A DNA stretch of 64,000 nucleotides from a bacterium 1XD21-70 (lineage in GTDB: Bacteria; Bacillota; Clostridia; Lachnospirales; Lachnospiraceae): positions 1 to 64,000 of the forward strand of contig RAYB01000026.1 of assembly GCA_003669055.1 (NCBI GenBank), given 5' to 3'. The translations under genes were made by a program, and so were the position numbers. The notes under the pieces are model-generated. The model was not told where the DNA came from. It made no database searches and saw nothing but the letters and a program-made list of their open reading frames with translations. Positions within the stretch are counted from its first letter, which is position 1, and each line of letters begins with the position of its first letter. Of this stretch, positions 1 to 55,579 are shown piece by piece.

Positions 1-222
1 GCCAAGAAAAACCGAGAATGGAGGCGGGAATATATGACGTTGCTGATGCGTGACCAGGAGAATATTGAGAAGGGAAGAACAGAGGGAATTGAGCAGGGGG
101 AAAACCGATATGCCCTGCTGACCCAGAAGCTGCTGCAGGAGAAACGGTATGATGCCATTGGGCGGATTGGGGTAGATAAGGGATACCGGCAGGAACTGTA
201 CAGGGAGTATCATATTCTGTAA
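1..222 (+). CDS. Rpn-type recombination-promoting nuclease/transposase, C-terminal end (partial)
   Basis: The frame is open from the first base of the window to a TAA at 220-222, giving 73 residues of the end of a larger protein. It contains the sequence NREWRREYMTLLMRDQE followed by a charged stretch rich in Glu, Gly and Lys, which is the usual tail of Rpn/PDDEXK-type putative transposases in Clostridia, where the conserved part ends at this kind of 'REYMTL' segment before a variable charged helix. The nuclease core lies outside the window, so activity cannot be judged. An IS256 element lies 220 bases downstream, so this end of the window is a mobile or degraded neighbourhood. Confidence 0.55.
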   Translation, partial: AKKNREWRREYMTLLMRDQENIEKGRTEGIEQGENRYALLTQKLLQEKRYDAIGRIGVDKGYRQELYREYHIL

Positions 223-11011: not shown

Positions 11012-11085
11012 GTGTGCGTAGCTCAGCTGGATAGAGCACTTGGCTACGGACCAAGGTGTCGGGAGTTCGAATCTTCTCGCGCACG
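11012..11085 (+). tRNA. tRNA-Arg, anticodon ACG
   Basis: A full cloverleaf can be drawn: acceptor arms gtgtgcg/cgcgcac (one G-U pair), D arm gctc...gagc, anticodon stem cttgg/ccaag with loop ctACGga, and a T loop gttcgaatc. The ACG anticodon (A34 normally edited to inosine) reads CGU/CGC/CGA. The 3' CCA is not encoded. It is a single tRNA gene, not part of a cluster. Confidence 0.95.
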
Positions 11086-29079: not shown

Positions 29080-29574
29080 ATTACCAATTTAACAGCACTC
29101 AATGGTTTTTCCCTTTATTCTCCGGCATCCTTCGCCGGAAATTTAGGGCAGGTGGGTGCGGCCGTTCCTGCCGGAATCCCCGGGCAGGACGGGACACAGG
29201 CACCGCAAAACCCGAAAGCTGCCAAAAAGCCGGATACCGACACCTACGAATGTGAGACCTGCAAGAACCGCAAATACCAGGACGGCTCCAACGATCCCGG
29301 GGTATCCTTCAAGGCCCCCACCCGCCTCAGCCCGGAAAGAGCTGCTTTTGCCATCCGCGCCCATGAGGCGGAGCATGTTGCCCATGCCAAGGCCAAGGCA
29401 CAGAAGGAGGATCAGGATATCGTGTCCCAATCGGTCAGCTACCGCACCGGGGTCTGCCCGGAATGCGGCAGGGTCTATATGGCCGGCGGCACTACCCGCA
29501 CTACCTTCCGGAGTGCTCCGGTTGTGGAGGAACAGCCGGTGGAAAAAGGGCGGTACGTCGATCTCACAGCCTGA
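29080..29574 (+). CDS. SprA-related putative zinc metalloprotein with ATT start
   Basis: The 164-residue product has two Cys pairs (CETCKNRKY and CPECGRVYM) and the sequence RAHEAEHVAHAKAKA, an HExxH-like element (HEAEH) as in the SprA-related family; these features suggest a zinc site. Reading back in frame from the first GTG (29152) gives a plausible N-terminus MTNLTALNGFSLYSPASF, if translation starts at ATT (29080). That ATT stands eight bases after GGGAGG, the ideal distance, and no ATG, GTG or TTG is suitably placed there. The shorter alternative from GTG 29152 has no ribosome binding site. Function unknown. Confidence 0.65.
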   Translation: MTNLTALNGFSLYSPASFAGNLGQVGAAVPAGIPGQDGTQAPQNPKAAKKPDTDTYECETCKNRKYQDGSNDPGVSFKAPTRLSPERAAFAIRAHEAEHVAHAKAKAQKEDQDIVSQSVSYRTGVCPECGRVYMAGGTTRTTFRSAPVVEEQPVEKGRYVDLTA

Positions 29575-29578
29575 AAAC

Positions 29579-29658
29579 CGGCGGCCTCTTCCCTTTTATG
29601 GAAGCAGCCGCCTTCGGCATGCAGGCCGAAAGCCGTTTACCGTTTCGGCCTGCATGCC
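29579..29658. repeat. two adjacent long inverted repeats
   Basis: First hairpin: ggcggc...gccgcc with a second stem ctcttcc/ggaag (about 29580-29612). Second: a perfect 16-bp inverted repeat, left arm 29616-29631 (ggcatgcaggccgaaa), loop of 11, right arm 29643-29658. No T-run follows. They could act as terminator and processing signal for the SprA-like gene, or be a small mobile palindrome. Confidence 0.7.
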
Positions 29659-29721
29659 CAAAATGCTGCCCAATCCTGGCTTCCCCTGCTTCTGCAGCCG
29701 ATTTTGCAAGCACCTTTTTGC

Positions 29722-29750
29722 TTGACAATCTTGCGCTTTCCCGCTAAAAT
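29722..29750 (+). promoter_or_regulatory. promoter of the hydFE transcript
   Basis: TTGACA (29722-29727), 17-base spacer, TAAAAT (29745-29750). Transcription would start near 29757, about 287 bases before hydF, leaving room for the structured leader. Confidence 0.8.
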
Positions 29751-29823
29751 AAAACCAATCCTCTTTCCCAGCGGCAGGCATCCCTTCCGCAAGGAACAGG
29801 AGAAAAGACAATATTATTTATAC

Positions 29824-29932
29824 TGCACTGACACGAGGAAGGGGATCCGAAGTGGAAGGCCATAGGGGGAACGGCTGTATTTGCCGTGCCCATGTTTTGT
29901 TTGTCAGTGCATCCTTACCGGGGTGCTTTTTT
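29824..29932 (+). ncRNA. riboswitch-like leader with overlapping terminator, upstream of hydF
   Basis: A perfect 10-bp closing stem tgcactgaca (29824-29833)/tgtcagtgca (29902-29911) encloses a purine-rich region and a nested hairpin (catagggg..acggc/gccgt..cccatg, 29861-29894). The 3' strand of the closing stem shares its last three bases (gca, 29909-29911) with the left arm of a terminator, gcatcc/gggtgc with TTTTTT (29909-29932). Forming the closing stem therefore competes with the terminator: the standard layout of a transcriptional riboswitch. I cannot assign it to a known class; Fe, S, SAM or an H-cluster precursor are only guesses. Confidence 0.6.
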
Positions 29933-30043
29933 GTTGTGTAAAAAGCTTCCGTGCCCGGCAAAAGACGCATCAGGAAACGCACCGCCAGGAAAGGATACCA
30001 TCTACAGGGAAAAAATAAAGAAAAACAAAGGAGGACCCATTCT

Positions 30044-31297
30044 ATGGCTTTCAATGAAACACCGGCTGCCCAGCGAATCCATATCGCTTTTTTCGGCCGG
30101 CGCAATGTAGGAAAATCCAGCCTGATGAATGCAGTAACCGGACAGGACCTGGCCGTCGTGTCGGAGGTAAAAGGCACCACCACCGACCCGGTCTATAAAA
30201 CCATGGAACTGCTGCCGCTAGGGCCGGTAATGATGATAGATACCCCGGGAATCGACGATGAAGGCGAACTCGGCCGGCTGAGGGTCAAAAAAAGCCGCCA
30301 GGTTTTGAATAAGGCTGACATCGCGGTGCTAATCGTGGATGCGGCCGCAGGCATCTGCCAGGAAGAACAGGAAATGCTGGCATTGTTCCGGGAGAAAAAA
30401 GTCCCTTTCCTGGTTGCCTGCAACAAGGCCGACCTGACAGGGGCCGCCCCTGGCTTCCAGGCCTGTGTCCCCCCCGTCCCGCCTTCTTTTGGCAGCCCGG
30501 TCTATGTCAGTGCCAAAACGGGAACCGGAATTGAGGAACTAAAAAACCGCCTTGCTGCCATAAAGCCGCCAGAAGAGGAGAAGGATCTTCTGGAAGGCCT
30601 CGTCAAGCCGGGGGATTTCATCCTCTTGGTGACCCCGGTCGATGAATCGGCACCCAAAGGGCGCCTGATCCTCCCGCAGCAGCAAACCATCCGTGCACTT
30701 CTCGGCCACGGCTGCCTCTCCCTGGTAGTGCGCGAATCTGAATTGAAGGATGCATTGGCCGGCCTGCGGCAAAAGCCTGCCCTGGCCATCACCGACAGCC
30801 AGGCCTTCGGCATAGTTTCTTCCCTCATACCGGAAGATATCCCCCTCACCTCCTTCTCCATCCTTTTTGCCCGCTATAAAGGAAACTTGGCACAGTGTGC
30901 CGCCGGTGTCCGTGCGCTGGACAATCTGCCGCCCCACAGCCGGATCCTGATCTCTGAGGGCTGTACGCACCACCGCCAGTGCAATGACATCGGCACCGTG
31001 AAGCTGCCGGGATGGATCCGGGAATTCTCTGGCTGTGAGCCGTCCTTTTCCTACACCTCGGGAACCGGCTTTGAGGAGGACCTGGCCTCCTTTGACCTGG
31101 TCATCCATTGCGGCGCCTGCATGCTGAATGAACGGGAAATGAAATACCGGCTGGCATGTGCCAGAGAGCAGGGGGTGCCGATGACAAATTACGGCATTGC
31201 CATCGCCCATATGCACGGGATCCTGAAACGCAGCCTGTCTCCGTTTTCTGACATTGCCGCACTTTTTGAGGAGCCTGAAGACCATGAATACAAATAA
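30044..31297 (+). CDS. hydF: [FeFe]-hydrogenase H-cluster maturation GTPase HydF
   Basis: HydF is the scaffold on which the two-iron subcluster is assembled and from which it is delivered to hydrogenase. The 417-residue product has an N-terminal Era-like GTPase domain (P loop GRRNVGKSS at residues 18-26, DTPGIDDEGEL, NKAD), a dimerisation domain and a C-terminal [4Fe-4S] domain with CTHHRQC and HCGACM, the expected CxHx(n)CxxC ligands. The ATG at 30044 follows aaaggaggacccattct. It overlaps hydE by 14 bases. No hydrogenase structural gene and no hydG lie in this window. Confidence 0.95.
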   Translation: MAFNETPAAQRIHIAFFGRRNVGKSSLMNAVTGQDLAVVSEVKGTTTDPVYKTMELLPLGPVMMIDTPGIDDEGELGRLRVKKSRQVLNKADIAVLIVDAAAGICQEEQEMLALFREKKVPFLVACNKADLTGAAPGFQACVPPVPPSFGSPVYVSAKTGTGIEELKNRLAAIKPPEEEKDLLEGLVKPGDFILLVTPVDESAPKGRLILPQQQTIRALLGHGCLSLVVRESELKDALAGLRQKPALAITDSQAFGIVSSLIPEDIPLTSFSILFARYKGNLAQCAAGVRALDNLPPHSRILISEGCTHHRQCNDIGTVKLPGWIREFSGCEPSFSYTSGTGFEEDLASFDLVIHCGACMLNEREMKYRLACAREQGVPMTNYGIAIAHMHGILKRSLSPFSDIAALFEEPEDHEYK

Positions 31298-32378
31298 CCA
31301 AAAAATGTCCTCCCGCCGCTTTGCCAAGACAAGTGCCGGGAACGCGGCCGAAAAGCTGATCTCCCGGCAGGTGATGGAAAAGGATGATTTTGTTGCACTG
31401 CTTGGTGATTTTGGAAACCAGGAAACCGGAAAACGGCTGAAAGAAGAAGCTCTGAGGCTGAGAACACAATACTACGGCCGCCAGGTCTTTGCCCGCGGGC
31501 TGATTGAGTTTACAAATTACTGTAAGAATAATTGCCATTACTGCGGCATCCGGGGCGCTAACCGCAACGCCGCCCGTTACCGGCTAAGCCAAAAGGAGAT
31601 CCTGGAATGCTGCCGGGAGGGATACCGGCTGGGATTTCGTACCTTCGTGTTACAGGGCGGGGAGGATCCGTTCTATACGGATGAAAAAATGGCGGCGATT
31701 GTCCGGGAGATCAAACGACGCTATCCGGACTGCGCCCTGACCCTCTCCCTTGGGGAGCGAACGCGGGAAAGCTACCGGCTGCTGCGCGAGGCCGGGGCTG
31801 ACCGCTACCTGCTGCGCCATGAAACGGCAGACGAGGCACATTACCGGCTGCTGCACCCGGCCGGTATGAGCCTTGAAAACCGCAGGCGCTGCCTATATAA
31901 CCTGAAATCCCTCGGCTACCAGGTCGGCGCAGGCATGATGGTCGGCAGCCCGGGCCAGACTCTTTGGTGCCTGGCAGAGGACCTGCTGTTTTTGCAGCGG
32001 CTGCAGCCCCAGATGGTGGGGCTCGGCCCTTTTATCCCCCACCATGACACCTGCTTTGCCACGGAAGCGCCTGGCAGTGTGGAACTGACGCTTTATCTGC
32101 TCTCCATCGTACGGATCCTGCTGCCGGGGGTGCTGCTCCCGGCCACCACTGCCCTGGGCACCCTCGACCCCTGCGGGCGCGAGAAAGGGCTGCTGGCCGG
32201 AGCAAATGTCGTCATGCCTAACCTGTCGCCCCTCAAAAACCGGAAGCAGTACGAACTGTATGATGATAAGGCCTGCACCGGCGAGGAAGCCGCCGAATGT
32301 CTCGGCTGCCTGAAACAGCGGGTGGAAGACGCAGGCTTTACGCTGGTGTCAGGACGCGGGGATGCCAGGCAGCTATAA
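31284..32378 (+). CDS. hydE: [FeFe]-hydrogenase H-cluster radical SAM maturase HydE
   Basis: HydE is a radical SAM enzyme that works with HydG and HydF to make the bridging dithiomethylamine/diiron unit. The cluster motif is C80-x3-C84-x2-C87 (NYCKNNCHYCGIR), followed by the TIM-barrel features FVLQGGEDPFYTD and GMMVGSPGQT. Length (364) is typical. The ATG at 31284 overlaps the hydF end and has gaggag upstream; ATG 31254 would add an implausible start. It ends 11 bases before the convergent addA. Confidence 0.95.
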   Translation: MNTNNQKMSSRRFAKTSAGNAAEKLISRQVMEKDDFVALLGDFGNQETGKRLKEEALRLRTQYYGRQVFARGLIEFTNYCKNNCHYCGIRGANRNAARYRLSQKEILECCREGYRLGFRTFVLQGGEDPFYTDEKMAAIVREIKRRYPDCALTLSLGERTRESYRLLREAGADRYLLRHETADEAHYRLLHPAGMSLENRRRCLYNLKSLGYQVGAGMMVGSPGQTLWCLAEDLLFLQRLQPQMVGLGPFIPHHDTCFATEAPGSVELTLYLLSIVRILLPGVLLPATTALGTLDPCGREKGLLAGANVVMPNLSPLKNRKQYELYDDKACTGEEAAECLGCLKQRVEDAGFTLVSGRGDARQL

Positions 32379-55197: not shown

Positions 55198-55534
55198 GGG
55201 GTTGTACTGGTTTCGACGGGGGTCATGCAGCTGGTGAAGCTATCCGCATGCGGTGCGTTAAACGGCAAAATTAAAATTAAACGCTGAAGAAAATTTAGCA
55301 TACGCAGCTTAATTGCTGCTGTCAGCCTTAGTGCACTCACACATTAAGAACCTGGCACCGACTATGTGAGAAACGACGTATATTAAGCTTTGCGTATACG
55401 GGCGTATGATGAAGCTACTAAAGCCGTAAGGATGTCTGCTTTCGTACGGCAGAGGGAATGCCAAACAACAGACTATGATAGTAGAAGAACAGGGAATTGA
55501 TTTTCGGACAGGGGTTCGATTCCCCTCAGCTCCA
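55198..55534 (+). ncRNA. ssrA: transfer-messenger RNA (one-piece)
   Basis: The tRNA-like ends ggggttg (55198-55204) and cagctcc (55527-55533) pair with two G-U pairs, the 5' part has the conserved tactggtttcgacgggg, and the T-arm gggttcgattcccct is present; 3' CCA is not encoded. The tag reading frame from the resume codon is gca aaa tta ... gca gct taa, encoding AKLKLNAEENLAYAA, which ends in the expected AA for ClpXP degradation. Pseudoknot sequences follow between the tag and the T-arm. It rescues stalled ribosomes with SmpB. Confidence 0.96.
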
Positions 55535-55536
55535 CG

Positions 55537-55579
55537 TAAAAAGAGATCCGTCTGCGATAGGCCGGATCTCCTTTTTTTG
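55537..55579 (+). terminator. intrinsic terminator of tmRNA
   Basis: gagatccg/cggatctc stem (55543-55570) followed by a run of seven T. It may also stop transcription of the convergent aminopeptidase gene. Confidence 0.88.

Follow-up and report, generated by a model that had tools for sequence, protein, structure and literature searches.

In the window (the whole stretch of DNA analysed, 64,000 nucleotides long), the H-cluster maturation genes hydF and hydE lie downstream of a leader whose parts are listed in Table 1, and glgC and glgD lie upstream of it. The start codon of hydE is ambiguous (TTG at 31254 or ATG at 31284). A sequence-only reading of this DNA had claimed a consensus promoter, a perfect 10-bp closing stem and a terminator with six T. 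All three are present: the promoter agrees with the consensus as given in the table, each of the ten stem pairs was checked, and the terminator stem-loop is followed directly by its T run. Promoter-like sites occur three times in 2.5 kb of the window against a shuffle mean of 1.2, and reading of all five other leaders from the genus shows a promoter resembling that of the window. The RNA would start at about 29757. A conserved ORF of 140 aa with cysteine pairs lies at 29152-29574; family models gave nothing above cut-off for it, with Pfam Rpr2 and DUF7129 appearing below threshold only. Between this ORF and the promoter there is, by reading, a perfect 16-bp inverted repeat (29616-29658) without a T run. 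Elsewhere in the window Rfam places a tRNA (11012-11085) and a tmRNA (55198-55537).

Table 1. Features of the hydF-hydE locus and its leader RNA in the window
Feature	Position	Strand	Basis or remark
Sigma-70 type promoter, TTGACA-17-TAAAAT	29722-29750	+	11 of 12 consensus matches
Upstream hairpin (domain 1), with internal loops	29759-29801	+	Conserved across window-type leaders
10-bp stem, 5' strand (proposed antiterminator)	29824-29833	+	Overlaps CUGA and part of stem a
Conserved core (proposed aptamer)	29825-29860	+	Unconstrained folds of 29757-29860 and 29822-29862; passes descriptor
Core parts: P1 GC(A)CU/AGGC, GA/GA loop, stem a CAC/GUG, GA/GAA loop, stem b GGA/UCC, loop AGGGGA			
Variable hairpin ACGGC/GCCGU	29871-29887	+	Length of region varies by species
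10-bp stem, 3' strand	29902-29911	+	Last three bases are the start of the terminator
Intrinsic terminator	29909-29932	+	Stem-loop 29909-29926, then six U (29927-29932)
hydF ribosome binding site GGAGG	30030-30034	+	By reading
hydF, H-cluster maturation GTPase, 417 aa	30044-31297	+	TIGR03918, 541.9 bits
hydE, H-cluster radical SAM maturase	31284-32378	+	TIGR03956, 547.6 bits (scanned as 31332-32378)

The segment 29818-29912 folds better than expected (z = -3.04; 2 of 200 shuffles as good) and the whole leader (29757-29937) only slightly so (z = -1.26). When the window transcript is allowed to fold freely up to 29860 it forms the core, GC(A)CU-GA-CAC-GA-GGA...UCC-GAA-GUG-GA-AG-GC. Up to 29912 the optimum is the 10-bp stem with other internal pairs, not the core. 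The sequence-only reading had taken the stem and the terminator to be mutually exclusive. Bases 29909-29911 are indeed common to both, but the fold with the terminator forced (-37.8 kcal/mol) keeps seven of the ten stem pairs; forcing the stem gives -37.3 and combining stem a with the terminator -35.0. With an overlap of three bases and seven surviving pairs, exclusivity in the window is therefore only partial. The overlap is larger in seven relatives: 8 nt in G003, 7 in G011 and G012, 6 in G017 and G021, 5 in G109 and 4 in L184. Family-wide statistics for an exclusive expression platform are modest.

A DNA search of 24 genomes of the genus matched the region upstream of hydF in G011, G012 and G017 (E 0.001-0.006), and the leaders of G021 and G003 were added by reading their hydF upstream regions. 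The 11 aligned stem pairs are kept at 10 or 11 positions in five of the six genus leaders and at 8 in G021. A covariance model (R1) was built from these six, so that their scores of 130-146 bits are by construction; over the 24 genomes R1 gave no further genome above 23.6 bits, and the window-type leader is absent from 18 of the 24. Among 397 genomes of the family R1 found an RNA before hydE-hydF in G109 at 32 bits, untrained; the G109 scores of 71 (R2) and 79 (R3) came after training on it. R3, trained on eight window-type leaders, found an RNA before TM1266-hydE in G442 and then, in a search of the genus of G741, its ortholog in that genome. A pattern scan of contigs returned 33 stretches, seven of which are real by covariance model R2 (53.7-110.5 bits); six were already known and the seventh, L184, lies before hydF. 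The other 26 score at most 17.8 bits and were set aside as chance, as were family matches below about 30 bits, those read, several of which lie in evident coding sequence. R2 gave nothing convincing in 392 genomes of the order. The combination of stem and terminator on which the sequence-only reading had staked its proposal recurs in other leaders, namely in five of the genus, in G109 and in L184, and all ten window-type leaders precede hydF, hydE or TM1266-hydE.

The upstream hairpin, domain 1, has nine pairs, three of which show changes on both sides in eight sequences whose alignment was fitted to the model, and by reading it covaries from CACU/AGUG to GGCU/AGCC in G442 and G741. It can be recognised by eye in G407 and G051 also. 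It was not seen in 21 leaders of the wider (type-2) set described below, which start with the core soon after the -10 box, and we rejected domain 1 as an essential part. Two other loci of the genus bear on the distribution of the RNA. In G018 (L033) a hydF 78-81% identical to that of the window is separated by 22 nt from the stop codon of the preceding ORF, homologous to 29152-29574, and has no leader RNA, an apparent loss or absence of the switch, and G013 (L048) has hydE-hydF-ssuC without a recognised window-type RNA.

The wider set was sampled from about 900 nt upstream of hydE in 140 of the 221 HydE-positive genomes among the 397, so the association of these leaders with hydE is by construction. 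Run without filters on the first 100, R3 gave L294 as its best match (25 bits, E 2e-4); 12 of its top 13 matches are on the sense strand, part of which may be explained by coding-strand composition. The hydE leaders read have a common core of CUGA or CUAA, stem a, RA, stem b, a loop, stem b', 2-3 nt, stem a' and RAAGGC. A profile of sequence alone matched 29 of the 100 leaders in the sense orientation (8 of the 29 being its seeds) and none in antisense at E 0.01, and at the same threshold it matched none of ten window-type cores. A structure descriptor, which requires pairing and was written after the first matches had been read, passed 35 of the 140 leaders in sense and none in antisense, against 1.3 per set in Markov shuffles. 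G204 and G149 pass it and were dropped as doubtful; only the window's own leader passes among the ten of its type. A relaxed descriptor gave 14 sense matches and one antisense match in the 101 remaining leaders, of which only G227 was judged convincing. In all, about 40 of the 140 leaders have such a core and about 100 have no convincing one. In 256 genomes of the order a pattern search had four matches; two lie inside ORFs and were discarded, and the other two, G076 and G652, belong to another family of the order. Two neighbouring RNA genes were seen at these loci: in G335 (L316, 169-429) a hydE leader with a variant of the core lies directly behind an SRP RNA gene, and in L230 a Clostridiales-1 RNA (RF01699, 128.7 bits; 2-155, minus strand) lies upstream of a type-2 leader on the opposite strand. 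We infer that the window leader belongs to this wider family because R3, trained only on the window type, ranks L294, one of its members, best and because the window core passes the descriptor; this link is the weaker part of the family assignment.

MAFFT placed 10 of 41 cores out of register or with another stem length, so covariation was counted on the 31 cores of the 4-nt type, of which 27 came from the sequence profile, two from the descriptor and two from the pattern. G382, G369, G424, G407, G051, G335, G442, G741 and the doubtful G204 and G149 were never in the core alignment, and G012 and G017 duplicate the core of G011. In the 31 cores 96.8% of cells are paired and 7 of 12 pairs change on both sides, with a covariation score of 0.226 against 0.135 (reached in 0 of 500 shuffles). 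Four of the five measures lie above all 500 shuffles, and the number of pair types was equalled in 35 of the 500. Stem a occurs as UCAC/GUGA, UUAC/GUAA, CUGC/GCAG, CACC/GGUG and CCCG/CGGG, and in window-type leaders as CAC/GUG, CAU/AUG and CGC/GCG. In 45 cores parsed by hand, 156 of 170 stem a pairs are standard, against a mean of 125.7 when the 3' strands are re-dealt. Of the genus leaders, only that of the window has an unbroken stem a; one of the three pairs is mismatched in G011, G012, G017, G021 and G003, and also in L184. A competing UUCC/GGAA hairpin can be read in G011, G012, G017, G021 and L184. Eight divergent cores, cut at their predicted ends and folded freely, gave the same order of stems, with ordinary stability (z -0.47 to -2.28); L184, L365 and L294 have loops of other sizes, and L237 and L258 lack the bulged outer P1. 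Taken together, the 5' leaders of different species share conserved sequence and secondary structure, and in the wider family the core is a hairpin of about 36 nt with a bulged P1, two purine-rich internal loops and, between them, a middle stem that covaries.

As would be expected of a riboswitch, the leaders stand before related genes: hydF, hydE, hydG, TM1266 and a linked ABC transporter. The 20 operon stretches include 16 with hydE and hydG, 12 of these with hydF too, and TM1266 comes first in several. Family models supplied the names for HydG of G216, for TM1266 at two loci and for the transporter. Six of the RNAs (G109, G442, G741, L184, G652 and G076) came from genome-wide searches that took no account of gene context, and five of these lie before hydE, hydF or TM1266-hydE. 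The sixth, in G076, lies before ssuCBA alone, with TM1266-hydE-hydF on another contig, and its transporter is 45-57% identical to the one behind hydF in L184. The gene order is hydE-hydF-ssuC-ssuB-ssuA in G109, hydF-ssuC-ssuB-ssuA in L184, G012, G017 and G021, and hydF-ssuC-ssuB within the available sequence of G003 and G011. Loci with an ssuCBA-like transporter of the NitT/TauT type are L184 (1262-3793), L384, L175, L187, L189, L034-L037, L048 and L368. For SsuA the family model scores below its cut-off; the solved structures that come nearest are those of proteins that bind sulfonate, taurine and nitrate. Neither ssuC nor ssuA was found together with hydG in the 57 stretches compared, many of which reach only 1.5 kb beyond hydF.

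With moderate confidence we propose that transcription is attenuated in cis by the leader (29757-29932), a candidate riboswitch of an apparently undescribed family that would act in the OFF direction. The small ligand bound by the core would be connected either with H-cluster assembly or with what the linked ABC transporter carries. A folded core with its ligand would keep the antiterminator, which in the window is the 10-bp stem, from forming; the terminator would then form and hydF-hydE would be off, whereas without ligand hydF-hydE would be read. The riboswitch of the sequence-only reading stands as a candidate, given that the leader matches no Rfam family and that the stem and terminator recur. 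Its assignment to hydFE is consistent with all relatives from the genome-wide search, but the part shared with the wider family is the hairpin at 29825-29860 and not the whole stem-closed domain.

The OFF direction, with the 10-bp stem as antiterminator, is favoured because pieces of the core can pair with the 5' arm of the terminator. By computation, the partner of this arm can be either a piece of the core or a stem in which core nucleotides take part. The best such pairing involves CUGACA in G011, G109 and L184 (likewise, with mismatches, in G012, G003 and G021), CACAAGG in G047 and G369, GGGUAC in G171 and AAGGCG..CAG in many type-2 leaders, and each would disrupt the core. Conservation of CUGA and AAGGC extends across lineages that pair through different pieces, which suggests that these two motifs have a role in recognition and that the bound core leads to termination. 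The test scored pairing of core and arm only. Duplexes of a leader's own core and arm average -13.5 against -12.4 kcal/mol for swapped ones (permutation p 0.0009, n=50); against shuffled cores the mean z is -0.81, with 18 of 50 leaders at z < -1. G407 and G051 have almost no pairing between core and arm. Since the mean z is only -0.81, OFF is a direction that we infer. Our confidence in the proposal is lowered by the partial exclusivity in the window, by the nine or ten window-type cores that the descriptor and the profile miss, and by the hydE association being by construction.

The design put forward in the sequence-only reading would correspond to an ON switch, in which the stem-closed domain is the ligand-bound form; binding would make the stem more stable and the terminator weaker, so that hydF-hydE are switched on. 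The perfect 10-bp stem is the predicted optimum of the isolated domain and is kept in G109 and L184 despite their different terminators. However, type-2 leaders, by reading, do not have such a long closing stem, and in the window the stem takes up the CUGA motif together with part of stem a, elements conserved even in lineages without it. We consider an ON switch unlikely.

It is also improbable that termination is decided by a regulatory protein or another RNA binding to the core. A short hairpin with purine-rich loops could suit a protein, and several operons start with the putative regulator TM1266, but TM1266 has no match in the window and none next to the RNA in G109, L184 or G076. A plain unregulated terminator behind a stable leader would account for the ordinary look of the terminator and for the unexceptional fold of the whole leader; conservation across genera, specificity for the sense strand and the coherence of the downstream genes make this very unlikely. 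Attenuation by a leader peptide, where translation of a short ORF would let the ribosome's position choose terminator or antiterminator, is still less credible. AUG-CAC-UGA or AUG-CGC-UGA occurs where the stem begins in G011, G012, G021, G003 and L184, but in the window the start codon would be CUG, in G017 it would be UUG, and in G109, G442 and G741 there is none. At this one candidate site the start codon is thus not conserved, and reading revealed no conserved ORF of greater length.

The sequence-only reading had claimed that no known class fits the leader, and the Rfam scan agrees: at the gathering threshold Rfam 15 has no match to the window leader, and at E<=10 the region 29600-30060 gave only sub-threshold noise. 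Beyond the window the scan covered 39 loci, 29 of them among the 140 hydE leaders: seven at gathering, L193 in part, and 13 plus 20 at E<=1 (two in both). Above gathering, the scanned sequences contain only tmRNA, tRNA, SRP RNA and Clostridiales-1, none of them on a core. On the leader cores scanned there was no match to the Moco/Wco riboswitch (RF01055), to NiCo, to T-box or to any other Rfam 15 family. Moco/Wco RNAs can precede hydrogenase genes (PMC9481103, PMC5651825), but a divergent member of this or another known class is hardly to be expected when no core scanned reaches the gathering score of any family.

The proposed attenuator resembles transcriptional riboswitches in its leader position, its compact conserved hairpin, its terminator with a competing pairing and its small coherent gene set that includes a transporter. 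It differs from them in that the piece of the core that best pairs with the terminator arm varies by lineage, and its ligand is only postulated. It shares with Moco/Wco RNAs a link to hydrogenase genes (PMC9481103, PMC5651825); in contrast, maturation genes follow here and the cores have no Rfam match. The HMP-PP (thiS) riboswitch is described as an aptamer embedded in a terminator (PMC6478431). Like the present RNA it is a rare RNA from comparative genomics that is tied to a cofactor pathway, whereas the present core lies upstream of its terminator and is without an Rfam match. By term search, hydE is not mentioned in the main text of two discovery papers (PMC8632094, PMC11109978) or in a review (PMC7266159). 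Our literature searches turned up no description of an RNA that controls H-cluster maturation, and the motif may have been published but be absent from Rfam. The larger leader family that resembles the window leader is apparently undescribed. A 2017 paper reportedly lists 224 candidate RNAs.

If a riboswitch does precede the maturases, the signal for H-cluster assembly would become open to direct test, and the riboswitch's ligand would name that signal. The RNA would also tie to [FeFe]-hydrogenase maturation an uncharacterised transporter whose genes follow hydF or, in one case, stand by themselves after a separate copy of the RNA. We give an outside chance to the further idea that the RNA is a new riboswitch class which senses a building block or assembly intermediate of the H-cluster and switches off the maturases together with a dedicated importer of the NitT/TauT type. 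On this idea, because the importer was never found with hydG in the 57 stretches compared, it may supply a compound that eases the HydG step or takes its place. If this is true, identifying the ligand would uncover a source for the H-cluster that is external and so far unknown.
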